From Xestospongia bergquistia (lineage: Eukaryota > Porifera > Demospongiae > Haplosclerida > Petrosiidae): DNA of 64,000 nt. The DNA lies in NCBI GenBank assembly GCA_963965975.1, contig OZ014412.1, positions 8,556,708-8,620,707 on the forward strand, written 5' to 3'. Shown here piece after piece: positions 19,417 to 61,421 of this stretch. The position numbers and the translations under genes were made by a program. The notes under the pieces are model-generated. The model made no database searches. It had not been told where the DNA came from and was given only the letters and a program-made list of their open reading frames with translations. How positions within the stretch are numbered: the stretch's first letter is position 1; every line of letters starts with the position of its first letter.

Positions 19417-22400
19417 TTAATATAAATAAGAATAGACATTGTTCTCTTTAACAGTAATACTAGTACCTCCTCCTTTTTCCCCTTGTGTTTCTCTTAGAGT
19501 TGGCTTTATTTCATCATAAATTACTGAAGGAGGTCTCTCTTTAATCTCTCTTGGTAGAGTTACTGTAGCATAGCAAGGATTATTATAAGCCTCAATGGCT
19601 AAAAGGTCATAATCATCAAATTATTGATAAGAGAGAAGGGGTACCTCGATGATCTGAGAGTTTGCGTTTCTTTCGTATTACAATACAAATCAAACAGATG
19701 ATACAACATGAAATAACTAATAAAAGTGCTGACAGAGGCATTGTTATCAATAGAATTACATGGAGAATTGGACCTGTATAAGATAGAACTAGAAGATGGT
19801 CTGTTAACAATGAATCCTTACCAGTAGTGTTACAAATCTCTCCTTGATAACCTTCATCACAAACACATACATTAGTGTCCACACAAATACCATGAACACA
19901 GGATGGATTACATGTAACTGATGCTCAAAATTAAAAAAAAGCAAAAATGTTATATAGCAATACAAACTTACTTTTTTGCTTTTGTTCACAATATTCTCCA
20001 GTAAAGCCAGGTAAACATGTACAGGTGTAATTTCCAGCATGATACTGACATGTACCATTATTGTTACAAGGACTTTGGTCACATGCTGAGTAAACTAATA
20101 CAGATAGGTTTCATTTAATTATGTATAACATATAACTCCTTTATTACCTATAGTATTACAAGCGTTTCCTTTATAACCTTCTCTACAAACACACACATTA
20201 ATGTCCACACAAATACCATGAACACAGGATGGATTACATGTAACTGATGTTCAAAATTTAAAAAAAGCAAAAGTGCTGCATAAAAAAGTAAACTCACTTA
20301 TTTGCTTATGTTCACAATATTCTCCAGTAAAGCCAGGTAAACATGTACAGGTATAGTTTCCAGCATGATACTGACATGTACCATTATTGTTACAAGGACT
20401 TTGGTCACATGCTGAGTAAACTAATACAGATAGGTTTCATTTAATTATGTATAACATATAACTCCTTTATTACCTATAGTATTACAAGCGTTTCCTTTAT
20501 AACCTTCTCTACAAACACACACATTAATGTCCACACAAATACCATGAACACAGGATGGATTACATGTAACTGATGTTCAAAATTTAAAAAGCAAAAGTGC
20601 TAGATAAAAAAGTAAACTCACTTGTTTGCTTTTGTTCACAATATTCTCCAGTAAAGCCAGGTAGACATGTACAGATGTAATTTCCAGCATGATACTGACA
20701 TGTACCATTATTGTTACAAGGACTTTGGTCACATGCTGAGTAAACTAATACAAGTAGGTTTGATTTTAATTATATATAACATATAACCCCATTATTACCT
20801 AAGGTATTACAAATGTCTCCTTCATAACCTTCTCCACAAGCACACACATTAGTATCCACACAAGCACCATGAACACAGGATGGATTACAATTTACTATGA
20901 ATGAGATAGAAGTCAATAGAGTGAATGAGTGTTAATTACTTACTTGGTTTGGATAAATTAACTAGTTGTTCAAGTTCCTGTCCTCCTTGATATGTAGCCT
21001 CTCCAATCTCAATTCTTCCAGTAGTTGCTATATCAAACTTACAGAACACATCATCTCCGCAAATATCATTAGCTTTTTTTTTCAGAGCAGTATTAGAAAA
21101 GGAAGGTTCATACACAGGAATGAATGATGGAAAATAGTATGTAGACCAGCTTTGTCCAAAATGATATTTAAACAAACTGTCACTAGGATTATCAATGATC
21201 CCTAAATGAAATTTAGAATTATTGTAAATTTCTAACTAGCATACACTTACATGTGATTCCAAACTTTTCATGTATCTCTTGTATAGTAGAGTTTAATGAT
21301 AATATTGTTCCAGTTCCCCTTGGAGTAAGGTCATCTGTCTTATCACCATTATATGTACCCATTAATCCTTGAGTTTTGCTTTGATAACTCTCAGGGAGGC
21401 TAACAATAAGGACAGATATAAAACCATTTTGTTCTTTTACTTGTACAAATGCACCACTTGAGAAGGTAGCACTGAATGTGGTGTTACCAGATTTAATGAT
21501 GGTAACATTTTCAAAGTCTTGAATTTTTAATTTATCAAAGTTAGCTCTTTCTCCATCAACAATAGTAATCACAGAAGTGATATTGTCAACTGTTTCTATT
21601 TCAAACTGAACTGTACTTGAACTCTTTTCTTTGGCTACACAAGCTGAGAAGACAGTAGCATTTGCAACACTTCCCAATGAAGTTTTAACTTCAATCATTC
21701 TTCCTTGTAGTGTAAATGATTGATCATTTGTCTCAATGAGAACAAACTCTCCCTTTCCATTAAATGTGTACTTGCGAAGATCAAGAGTCACAATATGTGG
21801 ATCACCAATTATGATAGCTAATGAATGACAAATTATTATAAATTACAAAAGAAATCAAGTATTAATCTTACAAATTGAAACCACACTGGCAAACATGCTT
21901 GTTATCCATGAACCATATTCTATAATATTGTTAATATGATACATACTCACCAGGTATTGGAGGAGTGTAAGCTGTTCCATTATCTGAAGGACGTCTTTCA
22001 TAGTAAATATCACAACTAGTTTGTGTTCCTTTACAACAGAAGATATATGGTAGGATATCTTCAAATTGATGTTTAATCAAGTTACTCAAGTAATTCAATC
22101 TAGTACTACCAACTGTAGATACTTTATCTACTGATCCTCCACCTGGTGGTCCCACAATTAGATTACCATCTCTACCATAGCAACATTCATTACCTGCTCC
22201 TTCATTAGTCCTACAAATGTACATAATTATATTAATAATATAACATGTGTATATAATATAGTACACAGATCATTGTATAGTAGTTGTACAGCTATTTTTC
22301 AAATATAAGCTACATGTGAATACTATAATATATCAGTTTGTTATTATAGATTAGTGTGACTCATTAGTTATGTAGTAGTAAATGAACAGATCTACTTTGT

Positions 22401-25400
22401 ATGTACTCACATAATGGTTTCCTCATATAGTTAATTAAGCGTCTACACTTTAATTGTTTATAACACTGTCCAATTAAGTATCCATAACATGTATTCTAAT
22501 TAAATTAAATTCCACATTATTGTGGTTATATACTAGATAGTTAATGTATGCTATCACATTATATATATATATATATATGGATTATATGCTAGCACGTTAA
22601 GTGTATAAACATTACATCTGATGATGGTTCTTAGTAAGGACTTGCATATAGCTAGTTTTAGTGTGTCATCGTCTTCATACACATTTATAGTAAATCCATA
22701 TGTTTCCAAAACTCAATCAATGTACTCAACAACCTGCTAATATACAGTACCATATATAGAATTACATTCATGTATGGCAATATACACATGTGAATTACAT
22801 ACTAAAAATTAAACCATCTTATTTACAACAACTACTCTACATAGACTGTTAATAGCCAGGATACTTATAATCCCACAGTCTCATATCATATGAAATGGGA
22901 CTATCACTTTTAACAGTGCTATAGAGTGTAATAGCAGTATATAAGTGAATTACATACTAAAAATCAAACCATTTTACTTACAACAACTACTCTACATAGA
23001 CTGTTAACTTATATAATATTACTAGCTATATCTACCTACATCATATGTTCCTTGAATAAACAATTTAATAGAAGAGGATATCTAGTGTTGTATATATTAA
23101 CTGTTGAATTACATTACTATCCACATCATATACTACTTGAATAAACAATTTAATAGAAGAGGATATCTACTGTTGTATACATTAACTGTTGACTTACATT
23201 ACTATCCACATCATATACTACTTGAATAAACAATTTAGTAGTACAAAATAGAATAAAGGATATCTACTATTCTATATCATACTTGTTCAGGCTTGCCATA
23301 TAGCTAGGATGCCTATAATCCCACAGTCTCATATCACATGAAATGAGACTGTGAGATTTGAAGGGAATTCTGATGGCAAATCTGGACAACACTGTCAAGC
23401 ACTCTATATAGACTGTTTACTAAATTAGTTATATGTGTAATATAAGAGTCTATGTATAGTTGATGACACAATTATTTAGTCTTCTAGTTACTCAAAGTGG
23501 GTAGTAGTAATTTGTTTGGTAAAGGATTTCCCAATAACTCATTTAGTAAACAATAACTGTCTTCTTCTTAGTACTACTAACTTGTTTACTCAAACCATGT
23601 GATGTGGATAGAGATTGCTTATTTAATAAGTTATCTTTACTACTAATTCCACCCACTTTGTATAATATATGGTAAACCACTTAACCAGAAGATTATCTTC
23701 TATAAACAGGCTGTTTACTATGAAGTATACCTCTAGTAGTAGCAATACAACTAACCATTTAGTCTAGTCAATTATATTATGTGGAATATAGTCTAGCTAT
23801 GAAAGTTAAAGCTTAATGTGCAAATGTAATCATAAACTAAATGATTATTTGCTATGTAACCTGATAAAACTGGACAATTGTTTTAACCAAGTCATTGTTC
23901 AATGCATTGCCACACTAAATAGAATGTCTATCATATATAGCTAATTGATATGAATTACAAACTAAATGTATTGTATTTGTTACTTAATATCAGTTATGTA
24001 TATTATTATTCTACTCAGAGTGTAAATTTGGTAATTAGAGAGTGATAACTTAATTAGTTTAAAAAACAATCAGTTTTAACATGACATTTAATCACTCACA
24101 GTAAATTGGTAGTATGTAACAATTGATAATGATAATATTATAGTTCATGACTAGATCAATTTACCTTGTAATAGTCCTTTGATGAAAACATTTAAAAGCT
24201 TTAGGATGAAAGAATTCTATCAGTCTTGTATCTCTATCTTCAATAAGTCCACTGTTCACAGTTCTAGCTTGACCAATAGTGGGTGGACATGGGAAATCAG
24301 AACGCACTTTTTCTAATAATTGTTGACCAATACTAGATGGTTCACTGATAGACCATGCTTTACATGCAGACCATAGTTTAGTACCACTAGATTGTTTATT
24401 GGTTGATACTATCCATATTATATCTGTCCATTGGGTGACTGTCCCTTCTGCTTTATCAAACAAAGTAGGACTTCTATCTTTAGCTTCAATGGAAATAATA
24501 GCAGCATAAACAGATTGATAACTGGAGTGAGATATAATAGGTATTGTGACAGTAGCTGATCCAGTATTAGCTACATCACTGTCTAGTGTGGTCACTTGTT
24601 CTAATGTAGAGACATCATTAGATATCTGGAATATATGTAACTTAATGTCAACAAGTAAATTTAAGGGAGTAATGACATCTTGTAATGGTTTAGTTAGAGA
24701 TACTGTTGACCACATTAATGTAATATTATCTCCTACATGTATAAGTAGTTTATGAGAGCTAATGTCAACATGATTATCATCTTCAATGCGTCCTACAGAT
24801 GAGATGAATCAAAAAATACTTAAAGTTAAAATCATTACTTACGTGAATAAAATGATGATTCCCTTTCATATTTAAATCCATTATGAAACAGTTGTACATT
24901 CACTCTTCCTATCTTTCTTAGTCTAGGTGTAATACATAATACTTGTCTTTGACTAACATAAACACCATCCACTTTAATACCATCAAATAAACAATATAAC
25001 TTATCAGTAGATTTAATATAAGTGGGTCCAGTTAGTATTACTGGTACACCACCTAATATATTACCATACCATGGATTGAGTTGAAGAGCACCTATTAGTA
25101 ACAATAGTAAGAGATAATTAGATTAGATTTATTTGTCTTACCTGTATTGATAATGTTTAGATTCATTCCTGTTAAGTATGTATATCCTTCAGAATTGAGA
25201 AAATAATAGTATTTCATACTTCCATATCCAATTACACTAAGACCAGCAGTAATATCAGTATGATGTAAAACATGAGGTAGAATGTCATCAAACTTATGAA
25301 CTGTTCCATATCCTATAATGTCACCATTATTATCATGAATGGGTTGCCAGTCCCAGTTATAAGGTTTATCATCTAATAGAACATCAGTTATGTTAGTTGT

Positions 25401-26687
25401 TGCAATTTGAATGTAATGATGATCAAACCAGTCAATCAATGAAGTGTTCAGTGGTACATAGACCACTTTATTAATGTACTGTTCTATAGGAGGTATCACA
25501 CTCAGGGTTTCATGTAAGAATGAATAGTTATAATAGGAGTATCTTACATGACCTTCTGAAACAAGTTGAGATACAAGTATTGGTTTATCAGATTCAATGG
25601 TACAAAAGGTAACTGGATCAATGTAAGCATTTGTAAAGTTCCAGTCACCGGGAAATGTCAAAAATGTGGTATTAATTAATGTATTGTTACAAGTTTGAGT
25701 GATAGTAGTTTCTCCTTCAGAGGCCACAATCTTTGTATAGTGCTGCACTGATGCTTCACGAAATGGTACAAGGAGGAACTTTTTACCCCAAGTCACTGTC
25801 GGAGGGATCTGCTCTGTAACATAATCACAAAACCACCACCGCCACCACCAGTCATTTTGTGAGAAGTACACATTAAACCACCATTGTTGATTTGATACTA
25901 TACCACACTCATGTCCACTGATAACTGTTAAAGGTTTATTTGAAATAATTTGAGTACCAGTTAGATCATCTGCAGCTCCAATCAGAAGTGTTTGCATCAA
26001 ATGTAGTCTAATGGTATAGGTATTGTCAGCATTGATAATAATAGTTGGATTGCTTGGATTTTGAGGGTCTTCTGGAACCTCTATCATCTGTGTAGGTACA
26101 ATAGTTATAGTAGTGTTGTCCTCATTTCCAACTAAAAGAAACAGACTCTGGTCTCCCCACCAGCTATCTAAAGATACCACATAATATTCATATCGTTGTA
26201 GTCCCATATTGATGTATGGATATGCTAAGTATTCAGCATTCAATTCATAGTCCACAGACATCACAACAACTGATATAGGAGTGTTGTCATCATTGGAATA
26301 GATATGAATTCCTTTGAATCGTTCTGAATAATTTCCATGACGTGGTTCAACATTATCAGGTAGTATTACAAGAACAGGACTATCAACAGATACATTACCA
26401 GTGTAGCACCAACCTGTACTATTGTGGTTCCATCCAATACCTAACTCTACTGTGAAGTTAACTGGCTGGACTGATAGTGTAGTAATGGTGAGTTCTCTTC
26501 TATAGTGCCAATATGACCTCAGTATACCAACATAGAAATGAACTCCATATGTAGAAAGCTGACCTTTGGTTATCTTAGGAAAATATACAGAAATCACTGT
26601 TGAAGAAAATAATGTAACATCACTTGATTACTAGTTAATGATCAACTTACAGACTGAAGTTAACAGAACAGTGTAGACTAGCTTCAT
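19417..26687 (-). CDS. Receptor R1: IgGFc-TIG-AMOP-VWD-EGF(7)-TM, tyrosine tail, 1510 aa
   Basis: Sixteen exons join in phase (4533 nt). Residues 1-17 are a signal peptide ([19 protein letters not shown]). An IgGFc-binding domain (~20-490; [39 protein letters not shown]) is encoded by one 1455-nt exon (26596-25142). It is followed by an IPT/TIG-like domain (~497-580; exon 25091-24843). AMOP (~722-830) has ACKAW, FPCPP and [12 protein letters not shown], split over exons 24792-24165 and 22210-21951. The VWD domain (21817-21251) starts [10 protein letters not shown] Cys-bearing linker exon (21201-20944) precedes seven EGF exons of alternating 96 and 123 nt (20894-19822). The TM exon is 19788-19645 and the tail exon 19598-19417. 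The tail holds [16 protein letters not shown] (ITIM-like) and YSYLY. AMOP-VWD-EGF order recalls MUC4, and the N-terminus recalls FCGBP. A cell-surface recognition or mucin-like role is inferred. Confidence 0.9.
22790..23275. repeat. Local repeats in the long AMOP intron of R1
   Basis: The 1954-bp intron splitting the AMOP domain contains three tandem copies of an ~82-bp unit (~23030-23270; ATCATATACTACTTGAATAA, AGAGGATATCTACTG). It also holds a direct duplication of GTGAATTACATACTAAAAAT and flanking bases (22790 and 22946). A CCCACAGTCTCATATCA segment occurs twice (22873, 23317). No coding content. Confidence 0.75.
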
Positions 26688-26745: not shown

Positions 26746-28104
26746 TTTTCAATGGCTTCAGTATTATCACTATACCACATTATGTGATAACATACTTAAC
26801 TGTACATTAGTAATAATGTATGCATAGTAAGTTATTAATATAGTGCTAATATAATGTTGATAGTTTATCAAAATAAAAATTACAATAACATTATATAAGT
26901 GGTCTAGAGTAATTTATAATTTGTTTTTTGACAAATAATAAACTATAAATCAATTTACACAAAGTCTAATATAATGAAACTAACTACAGTATATAATGTA
27001 CTGGTATTATATGTCATAGTACATGTTAACTAGTTTGACTATATAACCCTCTCCCTCAATAGAGTAACTAAAATCTAATTGTGTTCTTGTGGTTCATTTT
27101 GTATTATAGTTGAGAAGATCAATACGAGTGACTATACAATGTATATGTTGTGTTTTTTATAATAGCTCCTCACAAGTAACTATGAGAGAGAGAGAGAATC
27201 AATTGAGATTTATAAAACAAGTGGCATCAATGTCTCATATAATAAACACTTACTTGTTGTTGTGTCCTAGTAATTACAAGAAAGTGATTACAATTGAGAA
27301 CATGAGAGAGATGACCCAATGGAATAGCAATATCTAACTATGAGAATTATATCTATTATTACAATTCCAACAATATTAACTGACCATTTAAAATTGTTTG
27401 TAAAGGACTTTAGTAACTGGATCTGAGGACTTTACAGTACCTTTTAACATTTTGGATGTCATGTTAGTCAGTGTGACCACACCCTCTACTTCACTATTAA
27501 TAGACAAAGACAGTCAGTACATAACAATACAGTTATAATTGTAAATGTTCTTGTTGTTCATAATAATACATGTAATTAATAGAACAATATACTATAATAT
27601 AATATGACCTATATGTATATAAATTATATATTACTATTACATGTATTGTACATGTATAGTTGTCTTAATTAGTCTTGTTATGAGGTCAACTTTATTATTG
27701 GTAATAAATACAATATATCACACTTATAATATATGTATATATAATATTGTTATTAAATAGTGAGTGTGATATATACCCATTCTTGTCTACCACTGACATT
27801 TGATCAATAGCTTCAGATCCTAATATCTTAACAGTATCACTACAAGACACATCAGATTGAACTGTTATTGGACGAGATATTTCTAGGACACTTATAGGTT
27901 GTTTCCACCACATAACAGAGAGAAGAAAATGTATTAGACAATGTATAGCCAGTCAATAAATATACTATTACCATTTGTCTTTATCAGATTATCAACCATC
28001 CAATCATCATTGATAAATTTGGTACTATCATAATACAAACACCAATGTTATACCAGTAATAACATTAATAGACAAAAGTCTATCATATCTACTAATACAT
28101 ATAT

Positions 28105-29939: not shown

Positions 29940-30429
29940 ATATACATATATATGTACATGTATTGTATAATATACTGACATATAATTTCTGACAGAGTCT
30001 GGTAAAAGAACTACACAACGTTGTCCTTTTTGTAACTTCTGAGCAGCTTTTACAGCTGTAGCCACAGAACTACCACTAGAACCACCTACATGTGAGGAGG
30101 AATACGTTAAGACTACTTCTAAAGTTTGTGAACTCATTGTTAGTACATGTACTATTAGTCTAAACATAGAACTGTACAAGTAGTGGAATAAATATAACAT
30201 TCATAAGTGACAATATCAATTAAACTGACTACAATTGCCTTAAATATATGAAACTCAATAAATAATATATAATACATGTACATGTTTGTTTTAATCACAC
30301 TCTATTTATTAGTAGATGATTCTAATTTTACTTTAAAAAGTACATATCACATAATAGTCCTTCTTTACATTTGATAATTCACCAAGCAAAGTCAAACTTT
30401 CAGCATCTCCAGTTCCTGATTTTGGTCGT

Positions 30430-31255: not shown

Positions 31256-31494
31256 ATGCTGAATGTGAGGCTATGATATATAAAATAGTACAATAGTATA
31301 GAACAATGCATGATGTTCTATAAGTCTTTGTTAAGCAAAGTAATTGGTTGTGATAGGAAATGTTGTTATAGTCTTTAAAAAACCTAGAGACTTATCAATT
31401 TACATTTACATGTACTGGGAAACTCTAGTTTCATTAAATATTTAAAGTGATCTAGATTACTTAAACAAATTCTCAACTTTTGAAAAAGACCACT

Positions 31495-31800
31495 ATCATG
31501 ATCAGTGTTTCATGTAGAAATGAAAGGTTATAACAGGATTCTCTTACATATGCTTCTGAAAGAAGTTGAGATACAAGTATTGGCTTATCAGATTCAATGG
31601 TACAACAGGTAACTGGATCAAAGTTCAAGCAACCAGGCAGGAAGTCTCAAAATGTGGTGTTAATTAATGTATTGTTACAAGTTTGAGTAGTTTCTCCTTC
31701 AAAGGTCACAATGTTTGTATAGTACTGCACTAATAGTACAAGGAAGAACTCTCTATTAGTTGGATTTGCTCTGTTACATACACACAAAACAACAAGAACA
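31495..31800 (-). pseudogene. IgGFc-binding domain fragment (receptor relic, 3' of R2)
   Basis: Diverged relic of the IgGFc exon with small indels, parallel to 18843-19100. The blocks ACAAGTATTGGCTTATCAGA, TTAATTAATGTATTGTTACA and TTGTATAGTACTGCAC are recognisable against R1-R4, but the frame is broken repeatedly. It also retains the TTTCATGTAGAAATGAAAGG part that is missing at 18.84 kb. Confidence 0.75.
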
Positions 31801-32127
31801 ACCACCACTGGTCTTGTGATTGCATTCCACCATCACTGATCTCATACCATATGTATACAGTTTGTAAGGAGAAGAGTTTATTTCTCTTTGTTGGAAATTA
31901 AAACAAAGGTACTATAACTATTGTACTTAGCTACAAAGATGATAGAGGATTATAATGACAAGACTACTGTTGATGAACACAAACGCAAAATAACTTCTTT
32001 ATGTTGTAACAACAACAACAATAATAATAACAATAATTGTATTATATTTTTATTCACTTTTAGATTTTATACAAACACATTTTCACTAAAAAATTATTGG
32101 TAATTAATTATATTGTTAATATTGACA

Positions 32128-35100
32128 TTATTGAGTGTTAATATAAGAATAGGCAGCGTTCTCTTTAAAAGTAATACAAGTATTTTCCTTTTCCCTTTGT
32201 GTTTCTCTTAGAGTTAGCTTGATTTCATCATAAATTACTGAAGGAGGTCTCTCTTTAATCACTCTTGGTACAGTTACACTAACATAGCAAGGATTATTAT
32301 AGGTATTAACAACTAAAAGGTCATAATTGTCAAATTATAGATAAGAGAGAAGGGGTACCTCGATGATCTGTGAGTTTGCGTTTCTTTCGTATTACAATAC
32401 AAATCAAACAGATGATACAACATGAAATAACTAATAAAATTGCTGAGAGGGGCATTGTTATCAATAGAATTACATGCAGAATTGGACCTGTATAAGATAG
32501 AACTAGAAGATGGTCTGTTTATGTTATTTAACAATGAATCCTCACCAGTAGTGTTACAAGTCTCTCCTTGATAACCTTCATCACAAACACATACATTAGT
32601 GTCCACACAAATACCATGAACACAGGATGGATTACATGTAACTGATGCTCAAAATCAAAAAAAAGCAAAAATGTTATATAGCAATACAAACTTACTTCTT
32701 TGCTTTTGTTCACAATATTCTCCAGTGAAGCCAGGTAAACATATACAGGTGTAATTTCCAGCATGATACTGACATGTACCATTATTGTTACAAGGACTTT
32801 GGTCACATGCTGAGTAAGCTAATACAAGTAGGTTTGATTTTAATTATATAAACATATAGCTCCATTATTACCTATAGTATCACATGTGTCTCCTTCATAA
32901 CCTTCTCCACAAGCACACATATTAGTATCCACACAAACACCATGAATACATGGTGGATTACATGTAACTAATGTTCGATCATGTGAAGAAAGTTTTTTTT
33001 TTATCCTGGCTTACTTGTTACTTTATCTTTGCAAGACTTTCCTATAAATTCAGGTAAACAATGACAGCTATAATTCCTACCATGAGGTTGACATGTACCA
33101 CCATTACAAGGGTTAGGATCACAGGGTCTATGAACTACTAACAATTAGTAAATTTAGTATATTCATGATAACAGTGAATCCTCACCAGTAGTAGTATTAC
33201 AACTGTCTCCTTCATATCCTTCTTCACAAGCACACATATTAGTATCCACACAAGAACCATGAACACATGATGGATTACATGTAGCTAATATCCTGTCATG
33301 TGCGAAAAGTTTTTGATTCTGACTTACTTATCACTTTATTCTTGCAAGACTCTCCTATAAATCCAGGTAGACAATAACAACTATAATTCCTACCATTAGG
33401 TTGACATGTACCACCATTGCAAGGGTTAGGATCACAGGGTGTATGAACTACTAACAAATAATAAATTTAGTTTGCTCATAACAACAGTGAATCCTCACCA
33501 GTAATATTACAATTATCTCCTTCATATCCTTCTTCACAAGCACACATATTAGTATCCACACAAGAACCATGAACACATGATGGATTACATGTAACTAATG
33601 TTCAATATTGAAAAGAAGCCATAAATAATTAACTTACTTCTTTGCTTTTGTTCACAAAATTCTCCAGTAAAGCCAGGTAGACATGTACAGATGTAATTTC
33701 CAGCATGATACTGACATGTACCATTATTGTTACAAGGACTTTGGTCACATGCTAAGTAAACTATTGTTTCATTTAATTATGTATAGCATATAACTGTATT
33801 ATTACCAATGGTGTTACATTTGTCTCCTTCGTAACCTACTCCACAAGCACACATATTAGTATCCACACAAGCACCATGAACACAGGATGGATTACAGTTT
33901 ACTATAATTGAGATAGAAGTCAATAGAGTGAATGAGTGTTAATTACTTACTTGGTTTGGATAAATTAACTAGTTGTTCAAGTTCCTGTCCTCCTCGATAT
34001 GTAGCCTCTCCAATCTCAATTCTTCCAGTAGTTGCTATATCAAACTTACAGAACACATCATCTCCACAAATATCATTAGCTTTTTTTTCCAGAGCAGTAT
34101 CAGAAAAGGAAGGTTCATACACAGGAATGAATGATGGAAAATAGTATGTAGACCAGCTTTGTCCAAAATGATATGTAAATAAACTGTCACTAGGATTATC
34201 AATGATCCCTAAATAAAATTTAGAATTATTATAAATTTGTAACTAGCATACACTTACATGTAATTCCAAACTTTTCATGTATCTCTTGTATAGTAGAGTT
34301 TAATGATAACATCATTCCATTTCCCCTTGGAGTAAGGTCATCTGTCTTATCCCCATTATATGGACCCATCAATCCTTGAGTTTTATTCTTAAATCTCTCA
34401 GGAAGACTAACAATAATGACAGACATAAAACCATTTTGTTCTTGTACTTGTAGAAATGCACCACTTGAGAAGGTAGCACTGACTGTGGTGTTACTAGATT
34501 TAATGATGGTCACATTTTCAAATTCTTGATTTTTCAACTCATCAAAGTTAGCTCTTTCTCCATCAACAATAGTAATCACAGAAGTGATATTGTCAACTGT
34601 TTCTATTTCAAACTGAACTGTACTTGAACTCTTTTCTTTGGCTACACAAGCTGAGAAGACAGTAGCATCTGCAACACTTCCCAATGAAGTTTTAACTTTA
34701 ATCATTCTTCCTTGTAGTGTAAATGATTGATCATTTGTCTCAATGAGAACAAACTCTCCCTTTCCATTAAATGTGTACTTGTGAAGATCAAGAGTCACAA
34801 TATGTGGATCACCAATTATGATAGCTAATGAATGATAAATTATTATAAATTACACATCAAATATTGTTGAATAAACAAGTTAAACCATACTGGCAAGCAT
34901 GCTTTGCCAAACATGAATTATGATCTATGATATTATACATACTCACCAGGTACTGGAGGATTATAACCTGTTCCATTATCTGAAGGACGTCTTTCATAGT
35001 AAATATTACAACTACTTTGTGTTCCTTTACAACAGAAGATATATGGTAGGATATCTTCAAATTGATGTTTGATCAAGTTACTCAAGTAATTCAATCTAGT

Positions 35101-38100
35101 ACTATCAACTGTAGATCCTTTATCTACCGATCCTCCACCTGGTGGTCCCACAATTAGATTACCATCTCTACCATAGCAACATTCATTACTTGGTCCTTCA
35201 TTAGTCCTACATAATTATAGTTGTGATATACATAACTGTAAGGTCCTACTAGTTTCAGATGTGACATAATTATACTTTAAATAATATAACAAATGCATTG
35301 TTGTATTATTATACAAGTAGATAATTATAAACTACCTTAGAGTTCATAGGGTATTATCAATAATAATTTTGGACAGATTGTGTTACTTGCACTGTATTTA
35401 TAAAGGAAGCATTCAAATAAATATTTCAGAAAAAATATTTAACAAAGTGAACCACTGAATAAGTGATTATAAGTGCTCTGAAACTGTTGTTCTCTTAAAT
35501 TATAATCAGTCATACAGTAGGATTGCTTATGTATGTATGATCTGGATTGTCCATTGGAATGTATTAACAAAAAATTGAATATTTCATCAAAAACATTTCA
35601 ATGTTCTGTCTAGTGTTTCTTTCTAGAAGCTCAGGCAATGAATGAAACTATTGTAGTAAAAAGCTAAACAATAAACTTGATCATGTTTCTATAACAGGTT
35701 TTGTAAGCAGTATCAGAAAAGCAGTATCTGTTTTCTTCATTGTTAAAATAGATTTGTTGTTATAAGTGATTCATAGTCACTTGAGTTGCATATATCATGA
35801 CTAATAAGATGTTAAATACAATCTTCATTGCTCTGACAATTAACTATACACAATTATCAATCAATACATAGTAATGACAGCAGTGTGACTTTTATTACTT
35901 TGCATTATCTTCATCTATTTTATATGCAATGCAGAATATTAGTTACTTTTTACAAAACCTGTTATTTTAAAAACTTTTATCTAAAATTACTAGGCCTACC
36001 TATACCCAATTTGAATGAACAATAAAAAAGATAAGACTGAGAATTGCGATATTAACGATGGTAGAGTGGAGTAAATGTGTACAGTTTGTTAATGTATGAT
36101 TGTTTTACTGTAGAATTAGTTATTAATATGTTACTTTTACTAATTAATAGCTAGATAGTTCATGGCTAAATCAACTTACTTTGTAATAGTCCTTTGATGA
36201 AAACATTTAAAAGCTTTAGGATGAAAGAATTCTATCAGTCTTGTATCTCTATCTTCAATAAGTCCACTGTTCACAGTTCTAGCTTGACCAATAGTGGGTG
36301 GACATGGGAAATCAGAACGCACTTTATCTAATAGTTGTTGACCAATACTAGATGGTTCACTGATAGACCATGCTTTACATGCAGACCATAGTTTAGTACC
36401 ACTAGATTGTTTATTGGTTGATACTATCCATATTATATCTGTCCATTGAGTGACTGTTCCTTCTGCTTTATCAAACAACGTTAGATTTTGCAAATTACTA
36501 CCTTTAGCTTCAATGGAAATAATAGCACCATAAACAGATTGATTACTGGAGCGAGATATAATAGGTACTGTGACAGTAGCTGACCCAGTATTAGCTACAT
36601 CACTATCTAGTGTGATCACTTGTTCTAATGTAGAGACATCATTAGATATCTGGAAGATATGTAACTTAATGTCAACATGTAAATCTGAGGGAGTAATGAC
36701 ATCTTGTAATGGCTTAGTTAGAGATACTGTTGACCACATTAATGTAATATTATCTCCTACATGTATAAGTAGTTTATGAGAGCTAATGTCAACATGATTA
36801 TCATCTTCAATGCGTCCTACAGATGAGATGAATCAAAAAATACTTAAAGTTAAAATCATTACTTACTTGAATAAAATAATGATTCCTTTTCATATTTAAA
36901 TCCATTATGAAACAGTTGTACATTCACTTTTCCTATCTTTCTTAGTCTAGGTGTAACACATAATACTTGTCTTTGACTAACATAGACACCATCCACTTTA
37001 ACACCATCAAATAAACAATATAACTTATCAGTAGATTTAATATAAGTGGGTCCAGTTAGTATTACTGGTACACCACCTAGTATATTACCATACCATGGAT
37101 TGAGTTGAAAGGCATCTATTAGTAACAATAATGAAAGATAAATAAAATAAGTTTACTTGTCTAACCTGTATTGATAATGTTTAGATTCATTCCTGTTAAG
37201 TATGTATATCCTTCTGCATTGAAATAATAGGATTTCATACTTCCATATCCAATTACACTAAGACCAGCAGTAATATCAGTATGATGTAAAACATGAGGTA
37301 GAGTGTCATTAAACACATGAACTGTTCCATATCCTATAATGTCACCATTATAACCATGAATAGGTTCCCAGTCCCAGTTATAAGGTTTATCATCTAATAG
37401 AACATCAGTTATGTTAGTTGTTGTAATTTGAATGTAATGATGATCAAACCAGTCAGTCAATGAAGTGTTCAGTGGTACATAGACCACTTTGTTAATGTAC
37501 TGTTCTATAGGAGGTGTCACACTCAGGGTTTCATGTATGAATGAAAAGTTAAAGTAGGAGTCTCTTGCATAAACTTCTGAAACAAGTTGAGATACAAGTA
37601 TTGGCTTATCAGATTCAATGGTACAATAGGTAACTGGATCAATGTAAGCATTTGTAAAGTTCCGGTCACCAGGAAATCTCAAAAATGTGGTATTAATTAA
37701 TGTATTGTTGCAAGTTTGAGTGATAGTAGTTTCTCCTTCAGAGGCTACAATCTTTGTATAGTACTGCACTGATGCTTCACGAAATGGTACAAGGAGGAAC
37801 TTTTTACCCCAAGTCACTGTTGGTGGGATTTGCTCTGTAACATAATCACAAAACGACCACCGCCACCACTGGTCTTGTGAGAAAAACACATCTAACCACC
37901 ATTGTTGATTTGATACTATACCACACTCATGTCCACTGATAATTGTTAAAGGTTTATTTGATATAATTTGAGTACCAGTTAAATCAGCTACAGCTCCAAT
38001 CAGAAGTGTTTGCATTAAATGTAGTCTAATGGTATAGGTATTACCAGCATTGATAATAATAGTTGGGATGATTGGATTTTGAGGGTCTGCTGGAACCTTT

Positions 38101-38705
38101 ATCATCTGTGTAGGTACAATAGTTATAGTAGTGTTGTCCTCATTTCCAACTAAAAGAAACAGACTCTCATCTCTCCACCAGCTATCTAAAGATACCACAT
38201 AATATTCATATCGTTGTAGTCCCATATTGATATATGGATATGCTAAGTATTCAGCATTGAGGTCATAGTCCACAGACATCACAACAACTGATATAGGAAT
38301 TTTGTTATCATTAGAATAGATATGAATTCCTTTGAATCGTTCTGAATAATTTCCATGACGTGGTTCAACATTATCAGGTAGTATTACAAGAGCAGGACTG
38401 TTAACGGATACATTACCAGTATAGTACCAACCTGTACTATTGTGGTTCCACCCAATACCTAACTCTACTGTGAAGTTAACTGGTTGGACTGATAGTGTAG
38501 TAATGGTGAGTTCTCTTCTATAGTGCCAATATGACTTCAGTATACCAACATAGAAATGAATTCCATATGAAGAAAGCTGACCATTGGTTATCTTAGGAAA
38601 ATATACAGAAATCACTGTTGAAGAAAATAATGTTATATCACTTGGTTACTAGTTAAAGATCTACTTACAGACTAAAGCTAATAGAACAGTGTAGACTAGC
38701 TTCAT
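32128..38705 (-). CDS. Receptor R2: IgGFc-TIG-AMOP-VWD-EGF(9)-TM, tyrosine tail, 1586 aa
   Basis: Eighteen exons join in phase (4761 nt): 38705-38669, 38614-37166 (IgGFc), 37115-36867 (TIG), 36816-36180 and 35206-34947 (AMOP), 34824-34258 (VWD, GDPHIV), 34208-33951, nine EGF exons between 33901 and 32546, 32502-32359 (TM) and 32312-32128 (tail). Differences from R1 include two extra EGF modules of a [15 protein letters not shown] type shared with R3, and one 99-nt EGF exon with a duplicated Thr codon. The tail ([32 protein letters not shown]) keeps the R1 tyrosines. The AMOP intron is only 973 bp and lacks the R1 repeats. The last EGF-to-TM intron is 43 bp. Predicted surface type I protein; no lesion found. 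Confidence 0.9.
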
Positions 38706-44402: not shown

Positions 44403-47400
44403 TTAGACGGAAGTCATTGTAGTAGTCTCCTTTCTCAACATCAGTACTACCACTAAAACTATTGTCACTATAACAAATAGCAAAACTCCAAGACCTACTA
44501 CAACTCCAACAATAACACCAAGATTATTATCATCAGTTGATTCTTTTACTGTAGGAGCTAATACAATATAAAGTATGAAAACAATTTATACTTTCAACTA
44601 TAATAGCTAATAATTTATCATGCAAAAAAATTATTTCTGACCTACTTGTCACTTCATTCTTGCAAGACTCTCCTATAAATTCAGGTAAACAATGACAGCT
44701 ATAACTCCTACCATGAGGTTGACATGTACCACCATTACAAGGATTAGGATCACAGGGTGTATGAACTACTAACAATTAATAAATTTAGTTTGCTCACAAT
44801 AACAGTGAATCCTCACCGGTAGTATTACAACTGTCTCCTTCATATCCTTCTTCACAAGCACACATATTAGTATCCACACAAGAACCATGAACACATGATG
44901 CATTACATGTTACTAATGTTCAATATTGAAAAGAAGCCATAAATAATTAACTTACTTCTTTGCTTTTGTTCACAAAATTCTCCAGTAAAGCCAGGTAGAC
45001 ATGTACAAATGTAATTTCCAGCATGATACTGACATGTACCATTATTGTTGCAAAGATTTTCATCACATGTTGAGTAAACTACAATATTAATACAAGTAGT
45101 TTATCTATTGAATTATGTAACTGTATCATTCATTACCTATGATATCACAAGTGTCTCCTTTATAACCTTCTCCACAAGCACACACATTAGTATCCACACA
45201 AGCACCATGGACACAAGATGGATTACAATTTACTATAAATGAGAAAGAAGTCAATAGAGTGAATGAGTGTTAATTACTTACTTGGTTTGGATAAATTAAT
45301 TAGTTGTTCAAGTTCCTGTCCTCCTCGATATGTAGCCTCTCCAATCTCAATTCTTCCAGTAGTTGCTATATCAAACTTACAGAACACATCATCTCCACAA
45401 ATATCATTAGCTTTTTTTTCCAGAACAGTATCAGAAAAGGAAGGTTCATACACAGGAATGAATGATGGAAAATAGTATGTAGACCAGCTTTGTCCAAAAT
45501 GATATGTAAACAAACTGTCACTAGGATTATCAATGATCCCTAAATGAAATTTAGACTTATTGTAAATTTCTAATTAGCATACACTTACATGTAATTCCAA
45601 ACTTTTCATGTATCTCTTGCATAGTAGAGTTTAAAGGTAATGTTCCATTTTCGCTTGGAGAAAGGTCATCTGTCTTATCACCATTATATGGACCCATTAA
45701 TCCTTGAGTTTTGCTTTGATAACTCTCAGGGAGGCTAACAATAAGGACAGATATAAATCCATTTTGTTCTTGCACTTGTAGAAATGCACCATTTGAGAAG
45801 GTAGCACTGAATGTGGTCTTACCAGATTTAATGATGGTCACATTTTCAAAGTCTTGAATTTTTAATTTATCAAAGTTAGCTCTTTCTCCATCAACAAGAG
45901 TAATCACAGAAGTGATATTGTCAGCTGTTTCTATTTCAAACTGAACTGTACTTGAACTCTTTTCTTTGGCTACACAAGATGAGAAGACAGTAGCATTTGC
46001 AACACTTCCCAATGAAGTTTTAACTTCAATCATTCTTCCTTGTAGTGTAAATGATTCATCATTTGTCTCAATGAGAACAAACTCTCCCTTTCCATTAAAT
46101 GTGTATTTGTGAAGATCAAGAGTCACAATATGTGGATCACCAATTATGATAGCTAATGAATGACAAATTATTATAAATTACAAAAGAAACCAAGTGTTAA
46201 TCTTACAAATTGAAACCATACTGGCATGAATGCTTGTTATCCATGAACTATATTCTATAATACTGTTAATATGATACATACTCACCAGGTATTGGAGGAT
46301 TATATGCTGTTCCATTATCTGAAGGACGTTTTTGATAGTAAATATCACAACTAGTTTGTATTCCTTTACAACAGAAGACATATGGCAGGATATCTTCAAA
46401 TTGATGTTTGATCAAGTTACTCAAGTAATTCAATCTAGTACTACCAACTGTAGATACTTTATCTACTGATCCTCCACCTGGTGGTCCCACAATTAGATTA
46501 CCATCTCTACCATAGCAACATTCATTACCTGCTCCTTCATTAGTCCTACAAATGTACATAATTATATTAATAATATAACATGTGTATATAATATAGTATA
46601 CAGATCATTGTATAGTAGTTGACAGCTATTTTTCAAATATAAGCTACATGTGAATACTATAATATATCAGTTTGTTATTATAGATTCATGTGACTCATTA
46701 GTTATGTAGTAGTAAATAAGATACCTAAACAGATCTACAATGTATGTATTCACATAATGGTTTCGTCATATAATTAGTTAATCGTCTACACTAATGACTT
46801 TAATTGTTTATAAAATTGTACAACTAAACATCCATAACATAGGTTTTAATTAAATTCAATTCCATACATGGCTATATACTATATAGTTAATATATGATAG
46901 TACATTAAGTGTATAAACATTACATCTGATGATTATTCTTAGTAAGGACTTGCATATAGCTATAGTTTTAGTGTGTCACTAGTCTGAACATACACATCTC
47001 TAGTAAATCATATATTTTTTAAAACTCAATAAATGTATTCAACAACCTCCTAATATACAGTACCACATATAAAGTCATATTCATGTATGTAACTCATATA
47101 ATGAATGTATATGTTAAAGTGACATAATCAATTTTATCAGTGCTATAGAGTGTAATAGCAGTATATAAGTGAATTACATACTAGAAATCAAACTATTTTA
47201 CATACAACAACTACTCTACATAGACTGTTAAGCAATTAGTTTTAATATTATACATTCTTTCAGTAATACAAGTGTATTGTGGTTAGTGTTAAATAACATT
47301 GTATACATAATATAATGATATACATAACTCCAAATATTAAGTAACAAATACAATAGATTTAGTTTGTACTTCATAACAATTACCGATATATGATAGACAT

Positions 47401-50400
47401 TGTATTTAAAGTGACAATGCATTTAATAACAATTTTGTTAAAATAATTGTCCAGTTTTAACAGGTTCTTATCATATAATTATTTAGTTTATGACTATATT
47501 TGCACATTAAGATAAAGCTTTAACTTTCATAGCTAGACTGTTCCATCAAAATATTAATGATTAAACAATTATTATCATTTTATTATTATTATTTTTGTAA
47601 CTACTAGAGGTACTTAATAGGAAACAGCCTTTTTTATAGAAGATAATAATTTATACAAAGTGGGTGGAATTAGTAGTAAAGATAACTTATTAAATAAGCA
47701 ATCTCTATCCACATCAAATGGTTTGAGTAAACAAGTTAGTAGTACTAAGAAGAAGACAGTTATTGTTTACTAAATGAGTTATTGTTAAATCCTTTACCAA
47801 AAGAATTACTACTACCCACTTTGAGTAACTAGAAGACTAAATAATTGTGTCATCAACTATCTAAGAGAGTAGCTTTGGCAACTAGAGAGTAATATCTTAA
47901 TTAGTTGAAATAAACATTAAATTTTAACATGAGATTTAATCACTCACAGTACATTGGTTAGTATGTAACAATTGATAATGATAATATTATAGTTCATGAC
48001 TAGATCAATTTACCTTGTAATAGTCCTTTGATGAAAACATTTAAAAGCTTTAGGATGAAAGAATTCTATCAGTCTTGTATCTCTATCTTCAATAAGTCCA
48101 CTGTTCACAGTTCTAGCTTGACCAATAGTGGGTGGACATGGGAAATCAGAACGCACTTTTTCTAATAATTGTTGACCAATACTAGATAGTTCACTGATAG
48201 ACCATGCTTTACATGCAGACCATAGCTTAGTACCACTAGATTGTTTATTGGTTGATACTATCCATATTATATCTGTCCATTGAGTGACTGTCCTTTCTGC
48301 TTTATCAAACAATGTAGGATTCTGAGGATCACTCCCTTTAGCTTCAATAGATAGAACAGCAGTATAAACAGATTGATTACTGGAGTGAGATATAATAGGT
48401 ACTGTGACAGTAGCTGACCCAGTATTAGCTACATCACTGTCTAGTGTGGTCACTTGTTCTAATGTAGGGACATCATTAGATACCTGGAAGATATGTAACT
48501 TAATATCAACAAGTAAATTTAAGGGAGTAATGACATCTTGTAATGGTTTAGTTAGAGATAGTGTTGACCATATTAATGTAATATTATCTCCTACATGTAT
48601 AAGTAGTGTATGAGAGCCAATGTCAACACGATTATCATCTTCAATGTGTCCTACAGATGAGATAAATCAAAAATTACTTAAAGTTAAAATCATTACTTAC
48701 GTGAATAAAATGATGATTCCCTTTCATATTTGAATTCATTATGGAACAGTTGTACATTCACTCTTCCTATCTTTCTTAGTCTAGGTGTAATACATAATAC
48801 TTGTCTTTGACTAACATAGACACCATCCACTTTAATACCATCAAATAAACAATATAACTTATCAGTAGATTTAATATAAGTGGGTCCAGTTAGTATTACT
48901 GGTACACCACCTAATATATTACCATACCATGGATTGAGTTGAAGAGCACCTATTAGTAACAATAAAGAGAGATAAATAAAATAAGTTTAATTGTCTAACC
49001 TGTATTGATAATGTTTAAATTCATTCCTGTTAAGTATGTATATCCTTGTGCATTGAGAGAATGATAGTATTTCATACTTCCATATCCAATTACACTAAGA
49101 CCAGCAGTAATACCAGTATGACTTAAAACATGAGGTAGAGTGTCATTAAACTCATGAACTGTTCCGTATCCTATAATGTCACCATTATTACTATGAATAG
49201 GGTGCCAGTCCCAGTTATAAGGTTTACCATCTAATAGAACATCAGTTGTGGTAATTGTTGCTATTTGAATGTAATGATGATCAAACCAGTTTGTCAATGA
49301 AGTGTTCAGTGGTACATAGACCACTTTATTAATGTACTGTTCAATAGGAGGTATCACACTCAGGGTTTCATGGAGATATGAATAGGAGTCTCTTCTATAA
49401 CCTTCTGAAACAAGTTGAGATACAAGTATTGGCTTATCAGATTCAATGGTACAATAGGTAACTGGATTAATGTAAGCATTTATAAAGTTCCAGTCACCAG
49501 GAAATGTCAAAAATATGAAATTATTTAATGTATTTTTACAAGTTAGAGTTATGTTGGTTTCTTCTTCAGAGGCCACAATCTTTGTATAGTGGTGGACTGA
49601 TATTTTAGGAAATGGTACAAGGAGGAATGTTTTACCCCAAGTCACTGTCGGAGGGATCTGCTCTAAAACATAATCACAGTACCCTCCCCACCGCCACCAA
49701 TATCGGTTTTGTGAGTTGTACAGATCCAACCACCATTGTTCATTTGACACTATACCACACTCATGTCCACTGATAACTGTTAAAGGTTTATTTGAAATAA
49801 TTTGAGTACCAGTTAAATCATCTGCAGCTCCAATCAGAAGTGTTTGCATCAAATATAGTGTTATGGTATAGGTATTGCCAGCATTGATAATAATAGTTGG
49901 ACTGCTTGGATTTTGAGGGTCTTTAGGAACCTCTATCGTCTGTGTAGGTACGATAGTTATAGTAGTGTTGTCCTCATTTCCAACTAAAAGAAACAGACTC
50001 TGGTCTCCCCACCAGCTATCAATTGATACCACGTAATATTCATATTGTTGTAGTCCCATATTGATGTATGGATATGCTAAGTATTCAGCATTCAATTCAT
50101 AGTCCACAGACATCACAACAACTGATATAGGAGTGTTGTCATCATTGGAATAGATATGAATTCCTTTGAATCGTTCTGAATTATATCCATGACGTGGTTC
50201 AACATTATTAGGTAGTATTACAAAAGCAGGACTATCAACAGATACATTACCAGTGTAGTACCAACCTGTACTACTGTGGTTCCACCCAATACCTAACTCT
50301 ACTGTGAAGTTAACTGGTTGGAATGATAGTGTAGTAATGGTGAGTTCTCTTCTATAGTGCCAACTTGACCTCAGTATACCAACATAGAAATGAACTCCAT

Positions 50401-50539
50401 ATGTAGAAAGCTGACCATTGGTAATCTTAGGAAAATATACAGAAATCACTGTTGGAGAAAATAATGTTATATCACTTGGTTACTAGTTAATGATCTACTT
50501 ACAGACTAAAGCTAACAGGAGACTGTAGACTAGCTTCAT
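44403..50539 (-). CDS. Receptor R3: IgGFc-TIG-AMOP-VWD-EGF(4)-TM, short tail, 1348 aa
   Basis: Twelve exons join in phase (4047 nt): 50539-50503, 50448-49000 (IgGFc), 48949-48701 (TIG), 48650-48014 and 46545-46286 (AMOP), 46152-45589 (VWD, one codon shorter than R1), 45539-45282, EGF exons 45232-45137, 45078-44956, 44912-44817, 44768-44646, and a terminal exon 44557-44403. The last exon encodes a Ser/Thr/Asp juxtamembrane stretch, a Val-rich helix ([20 protein letters not shown], continuing IVLVVVLML) and a 10-residue tail, [10 protein letters not shown], with no tyrosine. Helix and tail are unrelated to R1/R2 but homologous to R4. A 2-bp difference from R4 shifts the frame and ends the tail early. 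One EGF has NASC in place of NPSC. Otherwise intact. Confidence 0.9.
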
Positions 50540-54136: not shown

Positions 54137-54350
54137 AGGTCCTTCTTGGTATAACTTCTATGATGATGTAACTTGGTACTATGATGATGACATCACTATG
54201 TGTCATAAGGTTTGGTTTAGGGCTTAGGTGATGGATTTAGATGATGTCATCATATATGATGACATCATATATGATTACATCGCAATGTGTCATTTAATGA
54301 TGATGTCATCATAGTCAAGTTACACCAAGAACCACCCAGAACAGCCTTCA
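54137..54350. mobile_element. MITE-like palindromic element, copy 2
   Basis: Ends GGTCCTTCTTGGTATAACTT and AGTTACACCAAGAACCACC are inverted. The interior contains TCATATATGATGACATCATA and TATGATGATGACATCACT. Longer and less degraded than the copy at 40719. It is embedded in the terminal CRYZL1-like exon. Confidence 0.6.
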
Positions 54351-55189
54351 TTTTCTCTTTGATCCCATATGGACACTCTCTGGTTCACGACAAGGCAAAT
54401 ATCTACATCTCCTGTTGCTAGTAGATAATATAATAGGACCATTCTATTCAGTAAACACCATTATGATATCCTTTATATGTGACTAGTCCTCCATTAGTAC
54501 ATTACAAAGTGTTAGTAGAAACAAATATCTTGTTTGTAGTCACTATATTTTTAGATGTTAAGTCATGTGACTGTCATGTGATAAATCATGTGATCATGTC
54601 ATGCATAGGTTATAGCTAGCTAAGCATTATGGCATGATATCTTATAAAATAGACAACTAGTATTGTCTTTAACATAAAATATATTAAATGATGTTGTAAC
54701 AAAACATAAGGAATGTTATCTTAAATAAGACCCGAGATAATAATGGATGGATAGATGGATCAGTGAATTCATTGATGGACAAATGAATGTATAATTGAAT
54801 ATAATTATGGACAGACTATTATATCATATTGTTATCTAGGTCTCATATATGATGTATGGTAGTTATAAATCAAGTCTTTGATGAACTGATAAAACTAGGA
54901 TCACAATCACTAGGGAGAATTGTCATGACAACAGATGTAATTCAATTAGGATAAAGAAAGGGTATTGTTAATATTTTTCAATGTAAATAACTGAGAACTG
55001 ATGTTGTAATTATCATATTTAAATGATATTTTAAAGACAACAATATACCTTTTCATTTGTTAACAATTGAATCAAATTTAATAAATGAAACGATTTTGTC
55101 ATTTTTAAAAGAATTAGTTTAAAATTAGATTTATATTATAATTAGATTTATATTAAAGTTATATCAAGTGATAATGTAAGTTTTACTTT

Positions 55190-59441: not shown

Positions 59442-61421
59442 TTAAATCTGATTACTTATTTCAGGCTTCTCTAGATCGTTAGAGCCAAGAGACATTTTAG
59501 TGGTCTTCTTTTTAAATTTCAGCACAAGTACTACCACTAAAACTATTATCACTACAACAAGTAGTAGTACTCCAAGACCTACTACAACTCCAACAATAAC
59601 ACCAAGATTATTATCATCTATAGGACATAATACAATATAAGTATAAGAACAATTAATATTATCAACTATAATAACTAATAATTTATCACATAAAAAAATT
59701 AATTCTGACTTCTTGTTACTTACAAGATTCTGTTATAAATCCAGATAAACAATGACAGTTGTAATTCCTAAAATGAGGTTGACATGTACCACCATTAGAA
59801 GGGTTAAGATTACTGGAGTTGGGTTGAAGGATACCTATTAGTAACAATAAATAGAGATAAGATTATTGGACAAACCTGTATTGATAATGTTTAGATTCAT
59901 TCCTGTTAAGTATGTATATCCTTCTGCATTGAGAGAACGATAGGATTTCATACTTCCATATCCAATTACACTAAGACCAGCAGTAATATCAGTATGACAA
60001 AAAACGTGAGGTATTGTGTCATTAAACTCATGAACTGTTCCATATCCTATAATGTCACCATTATAACCATGAATAGGTTTCCAGTCCCAGTTATAAGGTT
60101 TACCATCTAATAGAACATCAGTTGTGGTAGTTGTTGCTATTTGAATGTAATGATGATCAAACCAGTCAATCAATGAAGTGTTCAGTGGTACATAGACCAC
60201 TTTGTTAATGTACTGTTCTATAGGAGGTATCACACTCAAGATTTCATGGAGGTAAGAATATTTATATTTGGAGTATCCTCTAAGACCTTCTGAAACAAGT
60301 TGAGATACAAGTATTGGCTTATTAGATTCAATAGTACAATAGGTAACTGGATCAAAGTAAGGACGTATAAAGTTCCAGTCACCAGGCGCTGCCAAAAATA
60401 TGGTATTAATTAATATATTGTTACAAGTTTGAGTGATATTAGTTTCTCCTTCAGAGGCCACAATCTTTGTACAGTGCTGCAGTGATGCTTCAGGAAATGG
60501 TACAAGAAGGAACTTTTTACCCCAAGTCACTGTCGGAGGGATCTGCTCTGTAACATAATCACAATATCCTGACCACCGCCACAACCCATATGGTGTGTCG
60601 TATATATTCCACCACCATAGTTGATTTGTCACTATACCACACTCATGTCCACTGATAACTGTTAAAGGTTTATTTGAAATAATTTGAGTACCAGTTAAAT
60701 CGTTTAAAGCTCCAATCAGAAGTGTTTGCATCAAATGTAGTCTAATGGTATAGGTATTGCCAGCATTGATAATAATAGTTGGGCTGCTTGGATTTTGAGG
60801 GTCTGTTGGAACCTTTATCATCTCTGTAGGTACAATAGTTATAGTAGTGTTGTCCTCATTTCCAACTAAAAGAAACAGACTCTGGTCTCCCCACCAGCTA
60901 TCAATTGATACCACATAATATTCATATCGTTGTAGTCCCATATTGATGTATGGATATGCTAAGTATCCAGCATTCAATTCATAACCCACAGACATCACAA
61001 CAACTGATATAGGAGTGTTGTCATCATTAGAATAGATATGAATTCCTTTGAATCGTTCTGCATAATTTCCATTACGTGGTTCAACATTATCAGGTAGTAT
61101 TACAATAACAGGACTATCAACAGATACAGTACCAGTGTAGTACCAACCTGTACTACCATGGTTCCACCCAATACCTAACTCTACTGTGAAGGTAACTGGT
61201 TGAACTGATAATGTAGTAATGGTGAGTTCTCTTGTATAGTTCCAACTTGACCTCAGTATACTAACATAGAAATGAACTCCATATGTAGAAAGCTGACCAT
61301 TGGTTATCTTAGGAAAATATACAGAAATCACTGTTGGAGAAAATAATGTTATATCACTTGATTACTAGTTAGTGATCTACTTACAGACTGAAGCTAATAG
61401 AACAGTGTAGATTAGCTTCAT
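59442..61421 (-). CDS. Receptor R4: minimal IgGFc-EGF stub-TM protein, 592 aa
   Basis: Four exons join in phase (1779 nt): 61421-61385 (signal peptide), 61330-59876 (complete IgGFc domain), 59834-59724 and 59617-59442. The third exon is a fusion. Its first ~21 nt match the start of the TIG exon of R1-R3 (ALQLNP-type, here GILQPN). The rest matches the [18 protein letters not shown] exon of R3, but two cysteines are replaced (LNPSNGGTC) and the exon ends early at TCTT|GTAAGT. The last exon gives [20 protein letters not shown], more Val/Ile, then KFKKKTTKMSLGSNDLEKPE plus ISNQI. TIG, AMOP, VWD and all complete EGF modules are missing, apparently by one large deletion. The preserved frame suggests it may still be expressed as a short receptor. 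Confidence 0.8.

Follow-up and report, generated by a model that had tools for sequence, protein, structure and literature searches.

A young tandem array of membrane proteins with IgGFc-binding heads on a Mesh/SUSD2/MUC4-type stem in the sponge Xestospongia bergquistia: candidate recognition receptors

The stretch of sponge DNA analysed here—64,000 nucleotides of Xestospongia bergquistia (GenBank assembly GCA_963965975.1, contig OZ014412.1, positions 8,556,708 to 8,620,707), in the following called the window—carries four genes for predicted single-pass membrane proteins, each headed by an IgGFc_binding domain. Their head exons, found from stop-to-stop frames and repeat comparison, lie on the minus strand at a spacing of ~11–12 kb, and all four match the IgGFc_binding profile with 141.9–158.1 bits. 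Coordinates are window positions and profiles are those of Pfam, with cut-offs of 25.6 bits (IgGFc_binding) and 25 bits (AMOP). The four spliced models (A–D), whose exons are numbered from E1, show GT-AG introns throughout and no internal stops, and their exon junctions are in phase 1 everywhere but at E4/E5. An earlier note made from the sequence alone had counted four apparently intact minus-strand receptor genes: A, B, and C are such genes in a long form, whereas D is intact but a short form without the stem.

19417..26687, minus strand: gene A, long receptor of 16 exons and 1505 amino acids (exon model, Pfam), in the order putative signal peptide, IgGFc_binding, TIG, E-set-like, AMOP, VWD, C8-3_MUC4, seven EGF exons, membrane span, tyrosine tail.
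25142..26596, minus strand: A exon 2, IgGFc_binding head in one phase 1-1 exon (Pfam, 149.7 bits).
25830..25904, minus strand: A head loop, Cys 230 to Cys 256, Trp-rich, with TGG codon runs and of variable length.
24843..25091, minus strand: A exon 3, IPT/TIG (25.7 bits on spliced A; the TIG exon of gene B reaches 35.0 bits).
24165..24792, minus strand: A exon 4, putative E-set-like region and first AMOP half (AMOP scored across the splice).
21951..22210, minus strand: A exon 5, second AMOP half (Pfam).
21251..21817, minus strand: A exon 6, VWD, starting with IIIGDPH (59.3 bits).
20944..21201, minus strand: A exon 7, C8-3_MUC4 (55.6 bits).
19822..20894, minus strand: A exons 8–14, seven alternating EGF exons (exon model, Pfam).
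19645..19773, minus strand: A exon 15, membrane span (hydropathy 3.2).
19417..19598, minus strand: A exon 16, tail bearing the tyrosine motifs NPCY and VIYDEI (motif match).
32128..38705, minus strand: gene B, long receptor of 18 exons and 1581 amino acids with nine EGF exons; tyrosine tail at 32128–32312.
44403..50539, minus strand: gene C, long receptor of 12 exons and 1348 amino acids with four EGF exons and a short tail.
44403..44557, minus strand: C exon 12, membrane span followed by a short tail.
59442..61421, minus strand: gene D, short receptor of 4 exons and 592 amino acids, intact.
59724..59834, minus strand: D exon 3, a deletion scar at which the first part of the TIG exon joins the latter half of an EGF exon.
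59442..59617, minus strand: D exon 4, membrane span followed by a short tail.

Spliced A matches TIG (25.7 bits), VWD (52.6 bits), and C8-3_MUC4 (50.7 bits) in addition to EGF, and single exons of the window match VWD, TIG, C8-3_MUC4, and half of AMOP. The AMOP domain is interrupted by an intron. Joining E4 and E5 restores a match to nearly the full profile in A, B, and C (35.9, 29.6, and 34.5 bits), which in turn supports the E4/E5 junction; in a search with the whole of spliced A, AMOP stays above E 0.001. The composite of IgGFc-binding, TIG, AMOP, VWD, and EGF modules proposed in the earlier note is hence borne out by Pfam on exons, on spliced A, and on joined E4/E5: the profile search it had suggested recovers IgGFc-binding, AMOP, and VWD alike, and most of its observation stands. 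Membrane spans and signal peptides were called by a hydropathy threshold and inspection of the first exon, with no dedicated predictor. A hydrophobic C-terminal segment is present in all four models, in line with the proposed membrane anchoring. The signal peptide proposed for the copies is a putative one, called from the first exon by inspection; the N-terminal stretch exceeds the threshold in two of the four models, B and C.

Judged from its domains, the stem is that of Mesh, SUSD2, and MUC4, except that IgGFc_binding replaces NIDO at its head. These proteins share AMOP, VWD, and C8-3_MUC4 with the stem of the array, but carry a NIDO head; NIDO is absent from spliced A, and no position of the cluster is among the NIDO places listed genome-wide. 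FCGBP likewise combines an N-terminal IgGFc_binding domain with a VWD domain bearing GDPH. However, it is described with 13 VWD domains and repeated VWD–C8–TIL units (excerpts of PMC9354016), whereas spliced A has one VWD, one C8-3_MUC4, and no TIL at E 0.001; moreover, FCGBP is secreted and spanless, while all four models of the array end in a membrane span. Of the mixture of FCGBP and MUC4/SUSD2 parts that had been suggested, the FCGBP-like head therefore remains, but the stem is of the Mesh/SUSD2/MUC4 type.

When the stem alone (664 residues) was searched, 33 matches were obtained, 18 of them spanning 94–100% of it: 12 bear NIDO, four IgGFc (two from Amphimedon, one JGI, one ENA record), one VWA (Dysidea avara), and one Calx-beta (Amphiura). 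Common ancestry of this stem with that of Mesh, SUSD2, and MUC4 is found both in this search and in a tree of VWD domains. Within the Xestospongia genome, an IgGFc head lies on the same strand up to 9 kb upstream of 17 of the 44 C8-3_MUC4 places, and three have NIDO nearby, in one case 5 kb upstream. Five of the remaining 24 were read, and SRCR exons precede the stem in all of them (C1 3.73, C3 8.33, C2 11.35, C3 2.28, and C2 8.79). At these loci the genome scan gives VWD and C8-3 in five of five and AMOP above the cut-off in four of five; in single exons of four of them, AMOP is absent or below the cut-off. NIDO is found together with AMOP, VWD, and C8-3 at C5 0.996. One such locus adjoins the IgGFc array: at C2 ~8.783–8.793 Mb, plus strand (L025–L026), SRCR exons sit on a TIG–AMOP–VWD–C8-3–EGF stem followed by Ser/Thr-rich repeats.

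The VWD tree comprises 31 rows; C13 5.126, P0032, and P0035, which have no readable GDPH frame, were left out, and its total of seven changes is inflated by five "other" rows (three unread loci, VWA, Calx-beta). SRCR stems form a group of nine rows with 100/100 support, apart from the IgGFc stems; three of its rows are the unread loci, and another is a long NIDO branch of unsure placement. The IgGFc rows require one change, with weak support (50/70). A continuous swapping of heads is rejected on this tree, and the swap looks old: heads were exchanged a few times, probably long ago.

The array measures ~190 kb in all and begins or ends in the window, beyond which it extends up to about C2:8.763 Mb; the clustering of tandem copies proposed from the window alone thus reaches further. 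Projecting gene A onto 253 kb yields nine long copies (A included) that are free of stops in E2–E7—one of them, F8633, without E1—and 10 short copies, seven with stop-free heads. The three broken short heads contain one stop (S8650), eight (S8713), and three (S8724), and the short copy S8730 has ATA instead of ATG at its mapped E1. Near 66 kb there is one more short copy, itself interrupted, and head fragments lie between copies. GDPH is kept in the VWD domain of all nine long copies. At C2 ~8.628–8.640 Mb (L009, L010), the EGF exons of F8639 are followed directly by the F8633 head exon; the two may form a single fused gene in which the ectodomain is doubled. Genome-wide, the PF17517 profile finds at least 132 IgGFc_binding places on many contigs. 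Clusters include C1 14.4–14.8, C13 2.3–2.4, C7 1.0–1.3, and C1 21.9–22.3 Mb, a very large expansion of the family.

The short form D lacks TIG, AMOP, VWD, and a full EGF domain, and consists of head, stub, membrane span, and short tail. As its third exon starts TIG-like and continues inside an EGF exon, a deletion has removed everything from TIG through the greater part of EGF; behind six more short heads of the array, too, a partial EGF match stands at this place. Nonfunctional material is present as well, in the window as follows.

61617..62154, minus strand: relic of the second AMOP exon and the first part of the VWD exon, upstream of D, frameshifted.
31494..31819, minus strand: fragment of an IgGFc head, accompanied by an inverted piece (31868–31948).
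18831..19106, minus strand: fragment of an IgGFc head, accompanied by an inverted piece (19158–19239).

The fifth, dead copy of the earlier note is hence real as dead material but not as a single copy, since it resolves into at least these three fragments. The array as a whole has 11 relics that comprise the second AMOP exon and the VWD start, nine upstream of short copies and two of long ones. Their AMOP exons resemble one another about as closely as functional ones do (0.960 versus 0.968; intron 0.896 versus 0.898). A conserved function of these relics was considered and is rejected in view of frameshifts in four of the 11, an in-frame deletion in one, and a lost GT donor in another; recent copying or conversion would explain their likeness, and conversion is the likely cause.

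The copies are young. Mean pairwise synonymous divergence (dS) is 0.10 for long heads, 0.09 for E4, and 0.04–0.06 for E3, E5, E6, and E7, and its range by exon (0.04–0.11) together with the fragments agrees with the young duplications inferred before. The trees of E2, E4, and E6 are discordant, as expected from exchange between copies—which violates the single-tree assumption of the codon tests. For these tests, nine long and seven short intact heads were used. In the codon model the head as a whole is under purifying selection (ω, the ratio of nonsynonymous divergence (dN) to dS, 0.59; twice the log-likelihood difference, 2ΔlnL, 47.3 against ω = 1), and its ω is 0.50 when residues 221–360 are omitted. 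Stem exons range from 0.32 to 0.56, with E5 not significantly off 1 (2ΔlnL 3.0). Averaged pairwise windows of the head give dN/dS of up to 1.34; despite this maximum, positive selection in the head is unsupported by the codon models.

The head of A was modelled by AlphaFold2 as an all-beta structure with a mean local confidence (pLDDT) of 85.2 and a predicted template modelling score (pTM) of 0.89. No convincing whole-length structural match for it was found in the PDB, and its single sandwich domains weakly match many unrelated PDB proteins. The most variable part of the head is a Trp-rich, TGG-repeat loop, which contains the top dN window (residues 221–260) and the indels; as part of it is modelled at low confidence, the model does not establish its position on the surface. 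It is bounded by an invariant Cys 230 and a nearly invariant Cys 256. In 18 of 19 cluster heads (S8713 was not read), the stretch from the first conserved Cys to QIPP measures 24–33 residues and contains Trp—one in the broken S8650, four to nine in the other 17—and TGG codon runs differ in length between the loops. The same stretch has 27–36 residues and four to five Trp in L030 and in Amphimedon P0001 and P0002, and 13–17 residues without any Trp in 14 other heads (L001–L008, L034, and five other proteins); the loop pattern went unread in 44 of the 51 proteins retrieved, many of these 44 lacking the IgGFc domain.

The inner tails fall into two classes. A and B end in a ~60-residue tail with NPCY (an NPxY motif) and VIYDEI, which resembles an immunoreceptor tyrosine-based inhibitory motif (ITIM); C and D end in a short tail without tyrosine. 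The ITIM pattern [SIVL]xYxx[ILV], a weak test, matches the tails of A and B and not those of C and D. A pattern search of the 253 kb finds the tyrosine type in two of 18 ends, the other 16 being short and tyrosine-less. No end was found for F8633 and F8639; the patterns were built from known ends, so that other kinds may be missed.

Mobile and neighbouring elements accompany the genes. Between A and B lies a DNA transposon-like insertion (28095–29949), in which two plus-strand frames match the integrase core rva_4 (99.1 and 113.1 bits). Inverted repeats at 28095–28184/29860–29949 and 28190–28251/29774–29835 flank these frames. MITE-like (miniature inverted-repeat transposable element) copies, 91–99% complementary, occur among genes B, C, and D at 40703–41160, 43476–43935, and 54176–54553, and intron 4 of A (23456–23990) and intron 4 of C (47334–47860) contain inverted copies of one repeat (87–97%). 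An ankyrin repeat frame at 14052–14483, plus strand, probably belongs to a neighbouring gene.

The best reading of these data is that single-pass membrane receptors, encoded in a young tandem array, make up a family for recognition that is turning over and would work as a paired or decoy-like set. We give this reading about an even chance; a role in recognition or in mucosal defence is plausible. The sequence shows a fast-diverging head exon, predicted to be all-beta, on a Mesh/SUSD2/MUC4 stem or, in the short forms, almost directly on the span. Tandem duplication and internal deletion set the copies apart, as do discordant exon histories and the length of the TGG repeat in the Cys-bounded loop. 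The head might bind a surface ligand—a glycan of microbes or mucus, or else a marker of self—with the Trp-rich loop as the variable contact. Sponges are not known to have IgG or other antibodies; hence, the Pfam name "IgGFc binding" tells nothing about this ligand and should not be taken as function here. GDPH is the self-cleavage site of the FCGBP VWD domain (excerpts of PMC9354016), and cleavage there by analogy may yield a two-part receptor. A and B could signal or undergo uptake via their tyrosine motifs; the forms that are short-tailed or short might bind without direct signalling. With tailed A and B next to such nonsignalling forms, the set would work like paired or decoy receptors in the recognition of microbes or self. 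The five SRCR-headed loci read count toward a recognition role, SRCR being a recognition-type head on the same stem.

Several observations weigh against this reading. The best-studied bearers of the stem, Mesh and MUC4, are epithelial junction or surface proteins. No tested head region evolves significantly faster than neutral—the loop and residues 281–360 each have an ω of 0.83, not significantly different from 1, and residues 221–360 one of 0.78, below 1—so that diversifying selection is not demonstrated. The TGG runs may be simple repeat slippage, the second loop Cys is lost in F8704, one of the nine long copies, and the IgGFc-headed stems L034, P0020, and P0022 have a short, Trp-less loop. 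The ITIM-like match is weak, a chance match having a probability of ~0.3 by our own estimate given five to six tyrosines, and the tail motifs of A and B are not kept in Amphimedon P0001. Among the paired inhibitory and activating receptors of vertebrates, forms with and without a tyrosine tail lie in the same cluster and resemble each other in their ectodomains. The likeness to the tailed and tail-less forms here is apparent, but the ectodomain is another one, and the charged residue of classical activating partners is, by eye, absent from the 16 short-tail spans. A true paired system, in which all forms share the hypervariable, TGG-repeat-driven Trp loop, A and B are inhibitory or endocytic, short-tailed and stem-less forms compete with them for their ligands, and the stem carries IgGFc and SRCR heads for immune or self recognition, is graded as unlikely.

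The strongest competing explanation is that these proteins are epithelial surface or matrix components akin to Mesh and MUC4, which serve cell contact, mucus anchoring, or particle capture without recognition or signalling. The homology of the stem with Mesh and SUSD2-like proteins that carry C8-3_MUC4 favours it, as do the 16 of 18 ends without a tyrosine tail and the occurrence of a GDPH-bearing VWD domain in the mucus protein FCGBP (excerpts of PMC9354016). However, structural proteins are seldom found in young arrays of long and short forms with a hypervariable loop and two tail classes, and the SRCR arrays on the same stem suggest recognition; we consider this explanation possible, if on the unlikely side. 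An array for allorecognition, with the heads as markers of the individual as in other polymorphic membrane-receptor arrays of invertebrates, appears quite improbable: young clustered membrane receptors, discordant exon trees, and tyrosine-tailed next to tail-less forms would suit it, but the evidence comes from one genome only, and at least 132 IgGFc places over many contigs are unlike one compact locus. Least probable is a neutral expansion, in which unequal exchange multiplies copies and relics and, a few founder genes aside, little of the array has a function. The 11 AMOP/VWD relics (four with a frameshifted AMOP exon), the three broken short heads, the further head fragments, and the nearly neutral head regions speak for it; a purifying signal in the head and most stem exons (ω 0.32–0.59; E5 not significant) and the frame and GDPH kept in nine of nine long copies speak against it.

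The domain order itself is not unique. Two Amphimedon queenslandica records in UniRef, P0001 and P0020, both called "EGF-like domain-containing protein", have IgGFc_binding, AMOP, VWD, and C8-3_MUC4 in the same order as here, and P0001 is 54% identical over 99% of a 1151-residue query. The architecture, which had been taken for no standard one, is therefore unnamed but already present in public data. P0001 and the partial P0002 share the Trp-rich loop, P0020 has the short loop, and the tail of P0001 differs; this comparison covers domain order, loop, and the P0001 tail. A search with D returned 305 proteins, the best 120 of which are mostly nameless single-exon heads from ENA records; in the ENA-derived records P0106, P0132, P0165, P0123, and P0135, IgGFc heads are joined with SRCR, Ig, or EGF domains. 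The SRCR receptors of Halichondria panicea form a likewise large sponge receptor repertoire, and the legend of figure 1 of that survey names IgGFc-binding and NIDO among other domains (PMC8242945); its main text contains no occurrence of AMOP. Excerpts of PMC8242945, PMC9354016, and PMC8260672 do not describe the array, nor was a description of it or of the domain order found in the sponge literature on IgGFc-binding, FCGBP, AMOP, NIDO, and SRCR proteins, as far as excerpts outside subscription papers extend. New here are the array, its long and short forms, the two tail classes, and the loop.

Little is known of how sponges distinguish microbes and self. A young receptor array with one variable loop and two tail classes provides concrete genes for studying sponge recognition. 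An epithelial-type stem as in Mesh, SUSD2, and MUC4, which has borne NIDO, IgGFc, SRCR, VWA, and Calx-beta heads, moreover bears on the origins of receptor families.

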